Of a stretch of DNA of 64,000 nucleotides, positions 28,187 to 34,025 are shown piece by piece. The stretch's first letter is position 1. Each line of letters opens with the position of its first letter. The notes under the pieces were generated by a model, which worked only from the letters and a program-made list of their open reading frames with translations, was not told the origin of the DNA and did not search any database. Source of the DNA: Demequinaceae bacterium (GTDB lineage Bacteria > Actinomycetota > Actinomycetes > Actinomycetales > Demequinaceae); contig JAFGBM010000010.1 of assembly GCA_016933155.1 (NCBI GenBank), positions 62,001 to 126,000 of the forward strand. Direction: 5' to 3'. Position numbers and translations under genes: made by a program.

Positions 28187-28206
28187 GCTTTATGAGAAGG
28201 TGATGT

Positions 28207-28222
28207 GCGTCACGTATGACGC
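28207..28222. promoter_or_regulatory. Inverted repeat between the GGDEF-like and sigma factor genes
   Basis: GCGTCA (28207-28212), CGTA, TGACGC (28217-28222) is a perfect 6+6 inverted repeat. It lies 21 bases upstream of the GTG at 28186 and 140 bases upstream of the sigma gene, in the 175-base divergent region. It has the size of a dimeric regulator site. I cannot assign a regulator. Confidence 0.5.
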
Positions 28223-28361
28223 CGAAACGAAAAAGAAAAGCGGGAAATTTCGGCCCGTCTCTTGAACCGATGTGACGAACCACGCACGGGAGCTCCTTGC
28301 GCAGGCGGGCAAATCAAAGGGACGATAGAGGGGAGCGGTCCCGTTTCGAACGGAGAGGACT

Positions 28362-30422
28362 ATGGGTGAGGCGCCGGTCAGCCTCTGGACGCATGCGTCC
28401 AGCGATGCTGAGTTGCTCGCGGGAGTCCGGGGTGGGGAGTCAGCCGCCTTCGGGATTCTCTTCGAGCGGCACGCCGCCGCGGCGCGCCGGGTCGCCTCCA
28501 TGTACTCAGCTGCTTCCAGCGATGTCGACGACATCGTCTCCGAGTCCTTCGCCCGTGTCCTGAAGATTCTTCAGGAAGGAGGAGGACCGGATCTTGCTTT
28601 CCGGGCCTACCTTTTCACGGTCGTCAGGCGCACCGGGCTCGACCTCATCCGCAAGGCCAAGAAGATCGGTCCGGAAGATGTTGCCGACTGCGACGCCAAG
28701 ATCGGGTACTCCGCCTCGTCCGACGAGCCAACACTCACCGACTTCGAACACTCCATCGTGGCCGATGCCTTCAGGTCACTGCCGGAACGCTGGCAGGTTG
28801 TCCTGTGGTACACGGAGATCGAAAAGAAGGCCCCAGCGGAGGTGGCCCCCCTTCTCGGACTGAGCCCCAATGGAGTCGCCGCCCTCGCCTACCGGGCTCG
28901 CGAGGCCTTGCGTCAGGCCTATCTTCAGCAACACCTCGCCACGACCGACGATGTGTCCTGCCTGTCGGTGAGCGAACACCTGTCGGCCTATGTCCGTGGC
29001 GGCCTGACCAAGCGTGAGCACGCGAAGGTCGAGGCGCACGTCAAACAGTGCGAGCGATGCGAGGCCCTCGTCGCCGAACTCGAAGATGTCAACCGCGGGC
29101 TTCGGGCCGTCATCGCCCCGATCGTCCTCGGCATCATCGGTCTCGGCGCCCTGGAAACCGCGCTCCCGATTGGTGGCGTCGGTGCGGCGAGCATCGCCGG
29201 CGGCGCCGGGGTTGGCGCGGGAAGCGCCGGGGGCGCCGGGGGAACGGGAACGGCCGCGGTCGGGGCGTCGACAACCGGAGGGCTCGGGGCGGGCGTGGCC
29301 TCAGGAATCGGTGGCGCGGTCGCAGCTGTCAGCGGTGTCTCGACGGCAACGTCCGCCACCACCCAAACCACCGCCGCGGTCACGACCGCCATGGCCAACA
29401 CGGTCACCGCGGTCGGCACATCGGGGGCGACCTTCCTGACCGCCGCAGCCGCAACCGTGGGGGTCGCCGCGCTGGCCGTATCCGGAGCCGGTCTCTTCGG
29501 GGGCCTCAGCGCCTATCACGAGGACCAGGAAGCCGCCGACTCCTCGACCAGCGTCATCGACCTCATCATGAGCGAAGACACCTCACTCCCCGGTCCCGGG
29601 CTTCCCCCCGTTCCCGAAGTCGTGACACCGTCCGACCCGGCCCCGGTCGCGCCGCCCGTGGAACCTGCTCCACCCGCCCCCAAGGCTAAGCCCGTGGCGG
29701 ATCCCGAGCCCGAGCCGGACCCCGATCCCATCGTCGACCCAGACCCCGACCCGGATCCGGACCCCGATCCCATCGTCGACCCAGACCCCGACCCCGACCC
29801 GGATCCGGACCCCGATCCCATCGTCGACCCAGACCCCGACCCGGACCCGGGACCGGTCATCGTCATCTCTGACGGCTCCATCACCATCACCATCGGCAAC
29901 GGAGGCAACTTCTTCCTCACGCTCGCCGAGCCAACCCTTGAAGTCCTGGTCTCCAACATCGACGACCGGGGATCGACCCCCATCACCCTGGTCTTCGTCG
30001 TTCCGGATGGGTTGACCTTCGTGCCCGACCCGGATGGGAAGAAGTGGTTCCGGATCGACGAGTGGAAGTGCGATCTGACCGACGACCTGATGATCGCGGC
30101 GTGTGTCACGCCGTCGCTTCCCCCTGGGACCGAGCGGTCGCTTTCGCTCCCGGTCTCGTTCACCGGTGATCCCGAAGACCCCGAGGTGGAACCGACGCTT
30201 GACGAGGATGCGACCACCGACCTCGTGTACTGGAACATCGTCTCTTGGCCGATCGCGGTCGAGGTGCCGACAGCCATCAAGCCCGAGGACGCGGTCGATG
30301 AGGATGATGAAGGAGGGGACGATGGCGACGGTGATGGCGATGGCGACGGCGACGGCGACGGTGATGGTGATGGCGATGGCGGCGACACCGGAGACGGTGA
30401 AGGCGAGCCCGTCCTGACCTAA
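28362..30422 (+). CDS. ECF sigma factor fused to anti-sigma zinc finger and surface extension
   Basis: One open frame of 686 residues joins several modules. Residues 15-95 are sigma region 2 (FGILFERHAAAARRVAS, then DDIVSESFARVLKIL) and 135-190 are region 4 (LPERWQVVLWY, then LGLSPNGVAALAYRAREALRQAYL). A zinc-binding anti-sigma motif follows with His226-x3-Cys230-x2-Cys233 (HVKQCERC). Hydrophobic segments lie near 247-270 and 365-390 with a Gly/Ala-rich stretch between. An Asp-Pro repeat (about 447-500) leads to a domain of about 130 residues (ISDGSITITIGNGGNFFLTLAEP onward) and a final Asp-Gly repeat. The outer part suggests a membrane sensor tied to the sigma factor. GGAGAGG precedes ATG 28362. 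Whether the protein is cleaved is unknown. Confidence 0.85.
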   Translation: MGEAPVSLWTHASSDAELLAGVRGGESAAFGILFERHAAAARRVASMYSAASSDVDDIVSESFARVLKILQEGGGPDLAFRAYLFTVVRRTGLDLIRKAKKIGPEDVADCDAKIGYSASSDEPTLTDFEHSIVADAFRSLPERWQVVLWYTEIEKKAPAEVAPLLGLSPNGVAALAYRAREALRQAYLQQHLATTDDVSCLSVSEHLSAYVRGGLTKREHAKVEAHVKQCERCEALVAELEDVNRGLRAVIAPIVLGIIGLGALETALPIGGVGAASIAGGAGVGAGSAGGAGGTGTAAVGASTTGGLGAGVASGIGGAVAAVSGVSTATSATTQTTAAVTTAMANTVTAVGTSGATFLTAAAATVGVAALAVSGAGLFGGLSAYHEDQEAADSSTSVIDLIMSEDTSLPGPGLPPVPEVVTPSDPAPVAPPVEPAPPAPKAKPVADPEPEPDPDPIVDPDPDPDPDPDPIVDPDPDPDPDPDPDPIVDPDPDPDPGPVIVISDGSITITIGNGGNFFLTLAEPTLEVLVSNIDDRGSTPITLVFVVPDGLTFVPDPDGKKWFRIDEWKCDLTDDLMIAACVTPSLPPGTERSLSLPVSFTGDPEDPEVEPTLDEDATTDLVYWNIVSWPIAVEVPTAIKPEDAVDEDDEGGDDGDGDGDGDGDGDGDGDGDGGDTGDGEGEPVLT
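29701..29850 (+). repeat. Asp-Pro coding tandem repeat in the sigma factor gene
   Basis: Repeated GACCC(C/G)GA units encode runs of Asp-Pro broken by Ile-Val (unit DPIVDPDPDPDPDP, three copies of unequal length). The longer DNA units starting at the three CCCATCGTCGACCC copies differ by whole GACCCC/GACCCG pairs, a pattern expected from slippage or recombination. The peptide would be a stiff, acidic, extended spacer such as found in wall-spanning linkers. Confidence 0.8.
30328..30402 (+). repeat. Asp-Gly coding simple repeat at the sigma factor C-terminus
   Basis: A run of GAYGGY hexamers (GATGGCGACGGT and variants) encodes about twelve Asp-Gly pairs just before the C-terminal TGDGEGEPVLT. 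It could bind calcium loosely or simply be a low-complexity tail. It is in frame with the sigma factor, which supports the reading frame to the stop at 30422. Confidence 0.7.
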
Positions 30423-31405
30423 CTCCTGGTCGCCTGGGCGTTGACCTCGTAAGAAGTGTTGGTCGCCTCGAAGAAATTCACGAGTTGCAGGGTGTCGTTT
30501 GCCGTAGCCATCCACTTCGCTGGATTCGAGACGTTGTAGTACGCCTCGAAGCCGAGTTCCTCCAACCGCCGGTCGGCGAGGTACTTGACGTATTGGTTCA
30601 CGTAGTCGGAGTTGAGGCCCAAGATCCCCTTAGGGAGCATGTCGCGGTTGTACTGCTCCTCCATCTCCACCGCGCCGAGGATCATGCCCCGGATCTCGTC
30701 CGCGAACGCCGGGTCCTGAAGATCTGGGTTCTCGTCCAGGACGGTCAGGATGAGGTTGATCCCGAACTGGAGGTGGAGCGATTCGTCGCGGATGACCCAG
30801 TCCATCAGCGATCCGAAGTTGCGCAACAGGTTCCGCTGGCGAAAGCTCAGGGCCACCATGAATCCCGAGTAGAACCAGATGCCCTCGAGGATGATGTTGT
30901 AGGCGATGAGGTTGCGGATGAAGTCCTTCTTGCCCTCGGTCGTCGTGATGTCCAGGGTCTCCTCCGTCATCCGGCGGATGAACCGAACCTGGAACTCCTC
31001 CTTCCGTGCCATCGACGGCACATCGATGTGGGAGTCGTACGCCGCCTCGCGATCGATGGGAAACGTCTCCAGTACATACTCGAAGGACATGCAATGGTTG
31101 GCCTCCTCCCACATCTGCTTCGCGAGGTACAGGTGGCACTCCGGGGCGTTGATGTAGGGATAGACCCCGAACGCGAGCGCCTTGTTCACGAGGAGCTCGT
31201 TCGGATTGAAGTACGACATGAGGAACGTGACGGCGTGTTTTTCGTCGTCCGTCATCTTCTTGAAGTCTGCGAGGTCCTCGCCGAGTTGGATCTCGTTGGG
31301 GAACCACGTGTTGGCGACGGCCTGGTTGTACAGGTCCATCGCCCACGGATACGTGATGGGCTTGAGCAGAAGCCCGTCCTGAATGCCGGTACCGAGGATT
31401 CCCAT
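30419..31405 (-). CDS. nrdB: Ribonucleotide reductase beta subunit, class Ic-like (Mn/Fe) NrdB
   Basis: A 328-residue R2 protein. The metal ligands are Glu70, Glu101, His104, Glu174, Glu208 and His211. Their spacing is the same as in Chlamydia R2 (Glu89, Glu120, His123, Glu193, Glu227, His230). The position of the radical tyrosine is Phe108 (EANHCMSF), and the first ligand is Glu rather than the Asp of class Ia, as in the Chlamydia Mn(IV)/Fe(III) enzyme. Tyr110 matches Chlamydia Tyr129. The tail carries residues for NrdA docking. ATG 31405 follows GGGAGA with seven bases between; ATG 31411 is an alternative. It lies downstream of nrdA in the same direction. The metal content is inferred from the residues. 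Confidence 0.92.
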   Translation of the reverse strand: MGILGTGIQDGLLLKPITYPWAMDLYNQAVANTWFPNEIQLGEDLADFKKMTDDEKHAVTFLMSYFNPNELLVNKALAFGVYPYINAPECHLYLAKQMWEEANHCMSFEYVLETFPIDREAAYDSHIDVPSMARKEEFQVRFIRRMTEETLDITTTEGKKDFIRNLIAYNIILEGIWFYSGFMVALSFRQRNLLRNFGSLMDWVIRDESLHLQFGINLILTVLDENPDLQDPAFADEIRGMILGAVEMEEQYNRDMLPKGILGLNSDYVNQYVKYLADRRLEELGFEAYYNVSNPAKWMATANDTLQLVNFFEATNTSYEVNAQATRS

Positions 31406-31433
31406 GACCATCTCTCCCAATTCTCTTGAAGGG

Positions 31434-34025
31434 CTACTGACACGACTCGCACTGGAGGCGCTCCATCGGATCCACCGGGCACTCCTCGCCATCGATGACG
31501 TCGACGTGAGGCTGGAGCCCGCCGAACCCTCGACGAGCGGGACCCTGTGAAGTCGGTCGTGCCGTGTTGGGGGTTGCGGCGCTTGCCGTGCCCGTCGCAT
31601 TGATGCGCTCGGTCTTGTTCACCCGGACCGTCGACTGCTCGGCTGTGTGCCGGGGCTTGACGTGAAGGTAGTACGTCGTCTTGACGCCGCGTTCCCATGC
31701 CGAGCTGTACAGATCCATCATGTCGTCGACATCGCGCGACTCCAGGTAGATGTTCCGGCTGATCGCCTGGTCGATCCACTTCTGGGCACGGGCGGCGACC
31801 TCGAGGAAGGCATACGGCGAGAGTTGAAAGGAGGTCTTGTAGACGTCCTTCAGGTGTTGGGGTACCTCGTCGATTTGACTGAGGTCACCCTGGACTTCGA
31901 GGAGACGATCGCGCACCCGCTCCCATACGCCGATCTCCTGGAGGTCCCTCACGAGGTTTCTGTTCACCTCGAGGAACTTGCCCGAGGATGTCGCCCGAGA
32001 GAATATCTGCGAGAACTGAGGATCGAAACCCGGGGTCGTCCCGGCCACGAGACCGATGGATGCGGTTGGGGCAACGGCCATGAGCGTCGCGTTCCGGATG
32101 CCGCCCCGAACCTTCTCTCGAAGCGTGTCCCAGTCCTGACGCATGGTCCGATCGACGGCGATGGGGAGGCCGCGGTCCTCCTCGGCCAACGCGATCGTGT
32201 CGAACGGCACGAGTCCCTTCGACCATCCCGAACCGTCGTAGTTCCGGTAGGAACCACGCTCTCGTGCAAGGTCGGCCGATGCGTCGATCGCGTGGTAAGA
32301 GACGAATTCGATGATCTCATCGATGAGCTCGTAGGCTTCGTCGGACTCGTACGCAAGCCCGAGTCTCTCGGCGATGTCCGTGAATCCCATGACCCCCAGG
32401 CCGATCGCGCGGTTCTCGGAGTTGGCGTGCTCGGATTCGACCACAGAAGAAAGAGTGATGTCCACGAGGTTGTCGAGTTGCCGCACCGCGAGCCGCACCG
32501 ACTCCTTCATGCGCTCCCAATCGATCACGCCGTCGATGAGATGGGTCGACAGGTTGACCGAAGCAAGATTGCAGACGGCGATGTTGTCGCGGTCCTGCGG
32601 AAGGCAGATCTCCGTGCAAAGGTTCGACAGGTGGATCGTCCCGGTGTTCGTGTTGAGGGCCCGGTTGTTGATCGTGTCCTTCCACGTCAGCCATGGATGC
32701 GAGGTGGTCTGAAGCGTGATGAGGATGGACCTGTACTGCTCACGGGCCCTGGTCTTCTTGAACTCCCTCATCCGACCCGCCTCCGCCATCTCCACGTACT
32801 CGGAATAGCGGGCGCTGAAGGCCGACCCGGTCAATTCGACGAGGTCGGGGGTCTCGGCCGGATCGAAGAGGTACCAGTCCTCATCGTCGCGGACCCGCTT
32901 CATGAACTCGTCCGAGATCCATACTGCGGTGTTCGCCGTGCGGGTCCGGCGATAGGGGTCCCCTGAATTCTGGCGCAGGTCGAGGAACTGGTCGAAGTCC
33001 AGATGCCAATTCTCCATGTAGAAGCAGAGGGCGCCGAACTTCTTGCCGCCCCGGGAAACGGCCCTGAGAGTCGAATCGATCGTGTGCATGAACGGGATCG
33101 GCCCGGTCGATGCGGTGTTGTTCGATCGGATCGGCGACCCCTCTGCCCGAAGCTTGGTGACGGACAGGCCGATCCCACCCGTCCCCTTGGTCAACCACAT
33201 GACATCCCGGACCGACTTGGCGATGTGCTCGATCTCGTCTTCCATCTGCATGACGAAGCAATTGGAGAGCTGGGGGTAGGAGGTTCCGGCATTGACGAGA
33301 GTCGAGCCGGCGGGCAGGTAGTCGAGGGCGGAGATCTTGTCATAGAAGCGGATGGCAGCCCCGGTCGGGTCAGCTTCGTTGAGGGAGAGACCCATGGACA
33401 CCCGCATCCAGAAATACTGCGGCACCTCGAGAGGTCGGCCGTCGCGCCCCGTGATCATGTAGCGGTTCTTCATGGTCACGGTGCCGATGTACTTGAGCAG
33501 GTCGTCACGCGTGTGGTCTATGGCCGCGGCCAGGGCGTCGAGGTCGAAGAGGCTGATAACCCGAGGGTCGAGCAAACCCTCCTCGACCGCATCGCGGATG
33601 TATCCGGGGAATCGGGCCTGGTGAAGCAGCGAGAGTTCGAGATCCGACTCGAAATCGCCCAAGACCCGCTTCGCGATGACCTTCCGCAGGAGACGGGCGG
33701 CGATGATGTCGAAGTCGGGGTCCTCCTTGACGTTCTGGATGGCCACGGCGATTGCGGCCTCGTCGAGTTGTTCCGTCGTGATCCCGTCGAACAGGGTGAT
33801 GGCGAGTTCGGATGCGACCTGGGTGACCTTCGAGATCTTGTCGACCAAGCCATCGGCAGCGCGTTCGATCGCCCGATTGATCCGGTCGGCGTTGTAGGGC
33901 TCCCGCGAGCCGTCTCGCTTGGTGACATGAATACCGGTCGGACCTCGGCGGTCCATGGGCCCCGGATCCGCCATGCCCTCAGTCGATTCGGAGCTCTCGT
34001 CCGTGATCGGTTCCGTGATCGTCAC
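31434..34025 (-). CDS. nrdA: Ribonucleotide reductase alpha subunit
   Basis: This 863-residue class I large subunit has an N-terminal ATP-cone (VTKRDGSREPYNADRINRAIERA, about residues 34-120) for dATP control. Active-site features are the cysteine in YPQLSNCFV, the Asn-Cys-Glu loop NLCTEICLP, AVCNLASVNL, and the C-terminal redox pair Cys859 and Cys862 (CESC) for thioredoxin. It reduces ribonucleotides to deoxyribonucleotides with NrdB. The start is GTG 34025, with AAGGGG six bases upstream. An out-of-frame ATG-ACG-TGA overlaps this start. nrdB follows after 28 bases. Upstream are paired NrdR boxes and an iron box. Confidence 0.95.
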   Translation of the reverse strand: MTITEPITDESSESTEGMADPGPMDRRGPTGIHVTKRDGSREPYNADRINRAIERAADGLVDKISKVTQVASELAITLFDGITTEQLDEAAIAVAIQNVKEDPDFDIIAARLLRKVIAKRVLGDFESDLELSLLHQARFPGYIRDAVEEGLLDPRVISLFDLDALAAAIDHTRDDLLKYIGTVTMKNRYMITGRDGRPLEVPQYFWMRVSMGLSLNEADPTGAAIRFYDKISALDYLPAGSTLVNAGTSYPQLSNCFVMQMEDEIEHIAKSVRDVMWLTKGTGGIGLSVTKLRAEGSPIRSNNTASTGPIPFMHTIDSTLRAVSRGGKKFGALCFYMENWHLDFDQFLDLRQNSGDPYRRTRTANTAVWISDEFMKRVRDDEDWYLFDPAETPDLVELTGSAFSARYSEYVEMAEAGRMREFKKTRAREQYRSILITLQTTSHPWLTWKDTINNRALNTNTGTIHLSNLCTEICLPQDRDNIAVCNLASVNLSTHLIDGVIDWERMKESVRLAVRQLDNLVDITLSSVVESEHANSENRAIGLGVMGFTDIAERLGLAYESDEAYELIDEIIEFVSYHAIDASADLARERGSYRNYDGSGWSKGLVPFDTIALAEEDRGLPIAVDRTMRQDWDTLREKVRGGIRNATLMAVAPTASIGLVAGTTPGFDPQFSQIFSRATSSGKFLEVNRNLVRDLQEIGVWERVRDRLLEVQGDLSQIDEVPQHLKDVYKTSFQLSPYAFLEVAARAQKWIDQAISRNIYLESRDVDDMMDLYSSAWERGVKTTYYLHVKPRHTAEQSTVRVNKTERINATGTASAATPNTARPTSQGPARRGFGGLQPHVDVIDGEECPVDPMERLQCESCQ

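Follow-up and report, generated by a model that had tools for sequence, protein, structure and literature searches.

One open reading frame of the window, the 64,000-nucleotide stretch of Demequinaceae DNA that was analysed here, encodes an ECF sigma factor, a ZAS anti-sigma domain, a tether with a predicted membrane helix and an outer domain in a single chain (Table 1). We think that its product is probably a membrane-anchored, self-inhibited sigma factor of the ECF52-like kind that is freed by proteolysis.

Table 1. Features of the fused gene and its surroundings (positions in the window; aa, residues of the fused protein unless a neighbour is named).
Feature	Position	Strand	Basis or remark
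Conserved divergent neighbour, 256 aa	27416..28186	-	Adjoins the sigma gene at all main family loci read
Upstream element TGTGAC - TTG - GACGAT	28271..28326	+	Probable promoter/operator; conserved upstream
Fused sigma / anti-sigma / tether / outer-domain gene	28362..30422	+	686 aa, ATG to TAA
Sigma-70 region 2, aa 33-101	28458..28664	+	Pfam PF04542 Sigma70_r2, E 1.4e-9
Sigma-70 region 4, aa 133-183	28758..28910	+	Pfam PF08281 Sigma70_r4_2, E 2.1e-4
ZAS domain, aa 200-233	28959..29060	+	Pfam PF13490 zf-HC2, E 8e-9
First hydrophobic stretch, better read as last helix of the ZAS, aa 248-267	29103..29162	+	Highly conserved; alignment, hydropathy, AlphaFold
Uncharged linker and membrane zone, aa 266-386	29157..29519	+	121 residues without D, E, K or R
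Predicted membrane helix, about aa 356-378	29427..29495	+	Hydropathy; predicted topology
Asp-Pro repeat spacer, about aa 448-496	29703..29850	+	42-48 base tandem repeat in the DNA
Outer Ig-like beta-sandwich, aa 504-640, DUF11-like	29871..30281	+	AlphaFold, Foldseek, family alignment
Acidic Asp-Gly tail, aa 646-686	30297..30419	+	Repeat 30320-30406, family alignment
Convergent nrdB, ribonucleotide reductase small chain	30419..31600	-	Pfam PF00268; lies directly against the fused gene's end

The preliminary description of this DNA had read ECF sigma regions 2 and 4 and a zinc-binding anti-sigma motif in the frame, and both assignments were borne out by Pfam and by matches to solved structures. 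Regions 2 and 4 are the only sigma regions of the protein and its profile is of the ECF type; the Sigma70_r4_2 score lies just below the curated Pfam cut-off, and the NCBIfam sigma70-ECF superfamily model matched above its own. A profile of the family matches the solved ECF sigma factors 1or7 and 6jbq over positions 9-183 and, farther along the same chain, the solved ZAS anti-sigmas RslA (3hug) and ChrR (2q1z). Only about 17 residues separate the sigma part from the ZAS domain, which has the H-X3-C-X2-C motif together with an upstream Cys ligand. The complete set of ligands, C200-X25-H226-X3-C230-X2-C233, is invariant in 30 sequences that range from Demequina to the Streptomyces-like proteins.

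The joining of these domains is a property of the family. A search of the family genomes found a homologue in 46 of the 47 Demequinaceae genomes and in all 43 near-complete ones, where it is unbroken, and none of the matches to the main copy holds an internal stop codon. The frame is a real single-chain fusion, as had been proposed, and the merging of two genes by a sequencing error, against which the preliminary description had warned, is excluded by the presence of the same fusion in 46 of 47 genomes. We found no point in support of such a sequencing or assembly error in the 28362-30422 frame and put its probability at practically nil. The source genome is small (1.89 Mb, 99.8% complete). 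Those relatives that bear a name are Demequina species and one Demequinaceae metagenome assembly, and the 20 family homologues that were translated have a length of about 963-1087 aa. The search for homologues covered the phylum of the source, Actinomycetota. At the level of the order, 46 of 149 genomes gave a match, nearly all of them in frames of at least 386 codons and only three in frames below 300; the outer domains differ among these homologues (Big_6 Ig-like is one example). In the phylum search the fusion was also present in Streptomyces-like genomes.

Behind the ZAS domain, the uncharged zone consists to 75% of Gly, Ala, Ser and Thr. The helix at about aa 356-378 was the strongest membrane candidate by hydropathy in 13 of 13 proteins tested; this region is rich in Ala and Gly, and the AlphaFold pLDDT there is about 30. 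The preliminary description had spoken of membrane segments in the plural, of which only this one predicted helix is convincing; the earlier stretch, at aa about 246-267, is marginal as a membrane helix and better read as the last helix of the ZAS. With a single membrane helix the rest of the C-terminal part should lie outside, and its acidic Pro/Gly/Thr spacers, its adhesin-like or carbohydrate-binding-module-like beta domains and its invariant Cys pairs fit that location. A second membrane helix at aa about 246-267, which would bring the C-terminus back inside, fits badly with the downstream parts, since these are the Asp-Pro spacer, an Ig-like sandwich with a Cys pair, and a fold that matches adhesins, carbohydrate-binding modules and YcnI.

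The Asp-Pro spacer, the outer beta-like domain and the Asp-Gly tail noticed earlier were all found again, the spacer and the tail as repeats in the DNA and the domain as a predicted Ig-like sandwich. AlphaFold gives this sandwich confidently (block pLDDT mostly 80-96), and its residues W568, C570 and C581 are invariant in the family alignment. By Foldseek the fold resembles a bacterial adhesin domain, carbohydrate-binding modules and YcnI, with a target TM-score of about 0.5-0.6. Integrins came out with the top E-value in Foldseek at TM-scores of 0.1-0.2, and we set these matches aside as a general Ig-like likeness, not homology.

Within its own family the window protein is one of reduced length. 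All aligned relatives, those of the same-genus genome and of Demequina included, carry a further outer beta domain of about 290 aa, the place of which is occupied here by the Asp-Gly repeat, which reaches the stop of nrdB. Since most of the relatives' outer region is missing, the signal of the window copy may differ or be lost. It might even be supposed that the copy is decaying or re-purposed and, having lost its sensing domain, is now constitutive or a decoy. The domain is indeed gone, the repeat stands in its stead and a genome search, run without a positive control, gave no match to it elsewhere in the window genome; yet the frame is intact, the sigma, ZAS and Ig-like domains retain their invariant residues, and the sigma and ZAS parts are 79% identical to the same-genus orthologue, so that we regard decay as very improbable.

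In the Demequina homologues (L036-L055) the C-terminal 290 aa or so form a conserved beta domain that no Pfam or NCBIfam family matches with confidence. For this domain of the relatives, Pfam returned only weak matches to DUF11, CARDB and DUF3344 (the last in 3 of 20 proteins), NCBIfam only a weak DUF11-type repeat, and the PDB no sequence match. Taken together, the outer domains of the relatives were modelled by AlphaFold with a pLDDT of 89 and a pTM of 0.84.

From this arrangement we infer a topology, a self-inhibition, a set of proteases and an outside signal. Sigma regions 2 and 4 would lie in the cytoplasm and be held inactive in cis by the fused ZAS; the uncharged Ala/Gly linker would lead to the one membrane helix, and the Asp-Pro spacer would take the Ig-like domain through the cell wall. 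An outer event sensed via the outer domain would lead to a cut outside and then, by a site-2 protease, to one within the membrane helix, and removal of the ZAS remnant would set the sigma factor free. Proteolytic release has been proposed for ECF48, ECF52 and ECF53 (PMC8999054, PMC5826349), and IutY is cut by Prc and then by RseP, which frees the sigma factor (PMC9249621). The preliminary statement that a sigma factor tethered to its own sensor must be cleaved or act from the membrane agrees with this published view and with what was demonstrated for IutY (PMC8999054, PMC9249621). M50 site-2 proteases occur in 47 of 47 family genomes and also in 14 of 14 control genomes, and because they are universal their presence is weak evidence that permits rather than supports the model.

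The second of these two routes would be that an outside ligand moves the ZAS off the sigma part, which then acts together with RNA polymerase without leaving its tether. The linker, flexible, uncharged and about 100 residues long, would give the necessary reach, and the literature surveyed demonstrates no protease acting on any ECF52-like protein. On the other hand, a flexible linker is a poor relay of movement and the best-studied tethered sigma factor, IutY, is cut (PMC9249621); we therefore consider action from the membrane improbable. Demequina is cultured and has a single main copy in nearly all genomes examined, and the genus of the window has a tethered and an untethered form, so that the choice between cutting and staying is directly testable.

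Both routes of the preliminary description stand, although it overlooked a third, the opening of the CHCC ZAS by oxidation or loss of zinc. The zinc site of RsrA (Cys11, His37, Cys41, Cys44) has the same ligands at the same spacing as the site of the window protein, and its first Cys is required for the oxidative release of sigma-R (PMC4960319). If the fused ZAS worked in the same manner, it would release the sigma factor without cleavage and the membrane part would only position the protein. The corresponding first Cys, C200, is invariant in the 30 homologues and is kept in two untethered paralogues that have no outer sensing part. The zinc may, however, be only structural, as in other ZAS proteins, and such a switch gives no reason why outer domain, spacer and membrane helix are kept in nearly all family members. 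As the sole mechanism it seems to us rather unlikely; as an input, alone or additional to cleavage, redox or zinc sensing stays live, given that the CHCC site is invariant and that paralogues without a tether exist.

One of these paralogues is encoded in the window genome itself (contig C7:166333-167073; minus strand of L002, 1498-2262). It consists of sigma and ZAS only, has 250 aa, is 68% identical to the window protein and ends in ...ELEDVNRALCA. The other, of 249 aa, is found in the other same-genus genome (L113, 848-1594) and ends in ...ELEDVNAMLR. Both end within a few residues of the ZAS/tether boundary and both keep the four zinc ligands; their mutual identity is only 56%, which is compatible with one origin or with two. 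We also considered the same-genus paralogue as the remnant of a tethered gene, with stops and a continued match past the ZAS, and rejected this, the DNA behind its stop being the antisense of another gene. The existence of paralogues without an outer part shows that a sigma-ZAS unit need not be freed from a membrane in order to be used. A tentative extension, which we think more likely wrong than right by some way, is that in this genus tethered protein and paralogue are a matched pair with one regulon and two sensors, the first reading the outside and the second the redox or zinc state of the cytoplasm. If this were true, an outer and an inner sensor of one module would feed one regulon, in the window genome via a common upstream element.

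A conserved element is present upstream of the sigma gene. A triplet like TGTGA / TTG / GANNAT was found in 21 of 22 upstream regions, that of the window-genome paralogue included, against a mean of 0.1 in base-shuffled upstream sequences, although 21 of 22 overstates the independence of the rows, which are related; the upstream DNA of the paralogue is otherwise diverged. The first part of the triplet lies 87-119 bases before the start codon. As judged from the sequence, the element is a probable promoter or operator. The genome contains three sites with the strict pattern, one of them at the gene itself; the two others were rejected as regulon members and judged to be chance, their surroundings offering no sensible target. 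Two more conserved blocks were seen in the upstream alignment at 28196-28240, between the two divergent genes: ATGAGA, close to the start of the divergent gene, and ATGACG, about 20 bases farther along. They are possibly the promoter of the divergent gene. The product of this neighbour has no convincing Pfam match, and its second half looks like a GGDEF domain without the GGDEF signature. On the other side, the sigma gene is followed by the convergent nrdB, which lies immediately next to it in the genus and farther off in several Demequina; we take it as context, outside the system.

The preliminary description had suggested a comparison with ECF groups that carry C-terminal extensions. We made it with the published group definitions (PMC5826349, PMC8999054, PMC10766802), and the arrangement turned out to be ECF52-like, not new. 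SCO4117 of Streptomyces coelicolor, the ECF52 protein studied in PMC5826349, joins a sigma domain, a zf-HC2 zinc finger, a membrane region, a proline-rich extension and an outer domain in one chain, and the outer NPCBM domain is given there as the hallmark. The ECF52-type proteins recognised by their NPCBM have their parts in the same order as the window protein: sigma domain, ZAS, Ala/Gly stretch, predicted membrane helix, Pro-rich part and outer domain. The window protein likewise has zf-HC2 behind the sigma domain and a long proline-rich extension, and like SCO4117 it comes from the Actinomycetota, ECF52 being described as confined to Actinobacteria. The Streptomyces-like homologues (one genus, genomes of 6-10 Mb) carry a C-terminal NPCBM with E about 1e-27, and it is for this domain content that we call them ECF52. 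They and the window protein are reciprocal best hits, with 37-44% identity over sigma and ZAS; an ECF52-type query finds the window gene first in the window genome (E 2e-50) and the paralogue second, the other ECFs following at E 3e-4. A second Streptomyces-like fusion (L108) matches the window protein far more weakly. A quick tree, in which many inner forks are weak, unites the ECF52-type sequences (support 99) and, separately, the Demequinaceae (support 93); a wider group (support 96) encloses both and leaves the remaining ECF sigma factors of the genome outside.

The two clades are thus separate, and they differ in the outer part. The spacer of the window protein is an Asp-Pro repeat, unlike that of ECF52, and its outer domain is an Ig-like/DUF11-like sandwich where ECF52 has NPCBM; a Pfam scan of the protein returned no NPCBM, and the predicted fold has only a general resemblance to carbohydrate-binding modules. 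By its sequence, then, the protein has an ECF52-like sigma-ZAS engine, but as it lacks the carbohydrate-binding module it would not count as strict ECF52 by the domain criterion applied here. Its outer head is unlike the sugar-binding head found in Streptomyces, so that sensing heads appear to be exchanged within the group on a constant engine.

In ECF53 and ECF48, a zinc finger that is likely a ZAS is fused to the C-terminus of the sigma factor together with one or two membrane helices, according to PMC8999054; by this published description the layout is similar to ours. IutY of Pseudomonas putida (ECF243) is likewise a sigma factor fused to its regulator, in its case via one membrane helix, but the regulator is periplasmic and FecR-like, not a ZAS, and serves Gram-negative cell-surface signalling (PMC9249621). 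RsrA, ChrR and RslA share the ZAS sequence and the zinc motif with the window protein and, unlike it, are separate from their sigma factors. We see in the fusion a new branch of an arrangement known from Streptomyces as ECF52, and not a new kind. What is new is in the detail: another outer head, its partial loss here, the paralogues without a tether and the upstream element that the window-genome paralogue shares.
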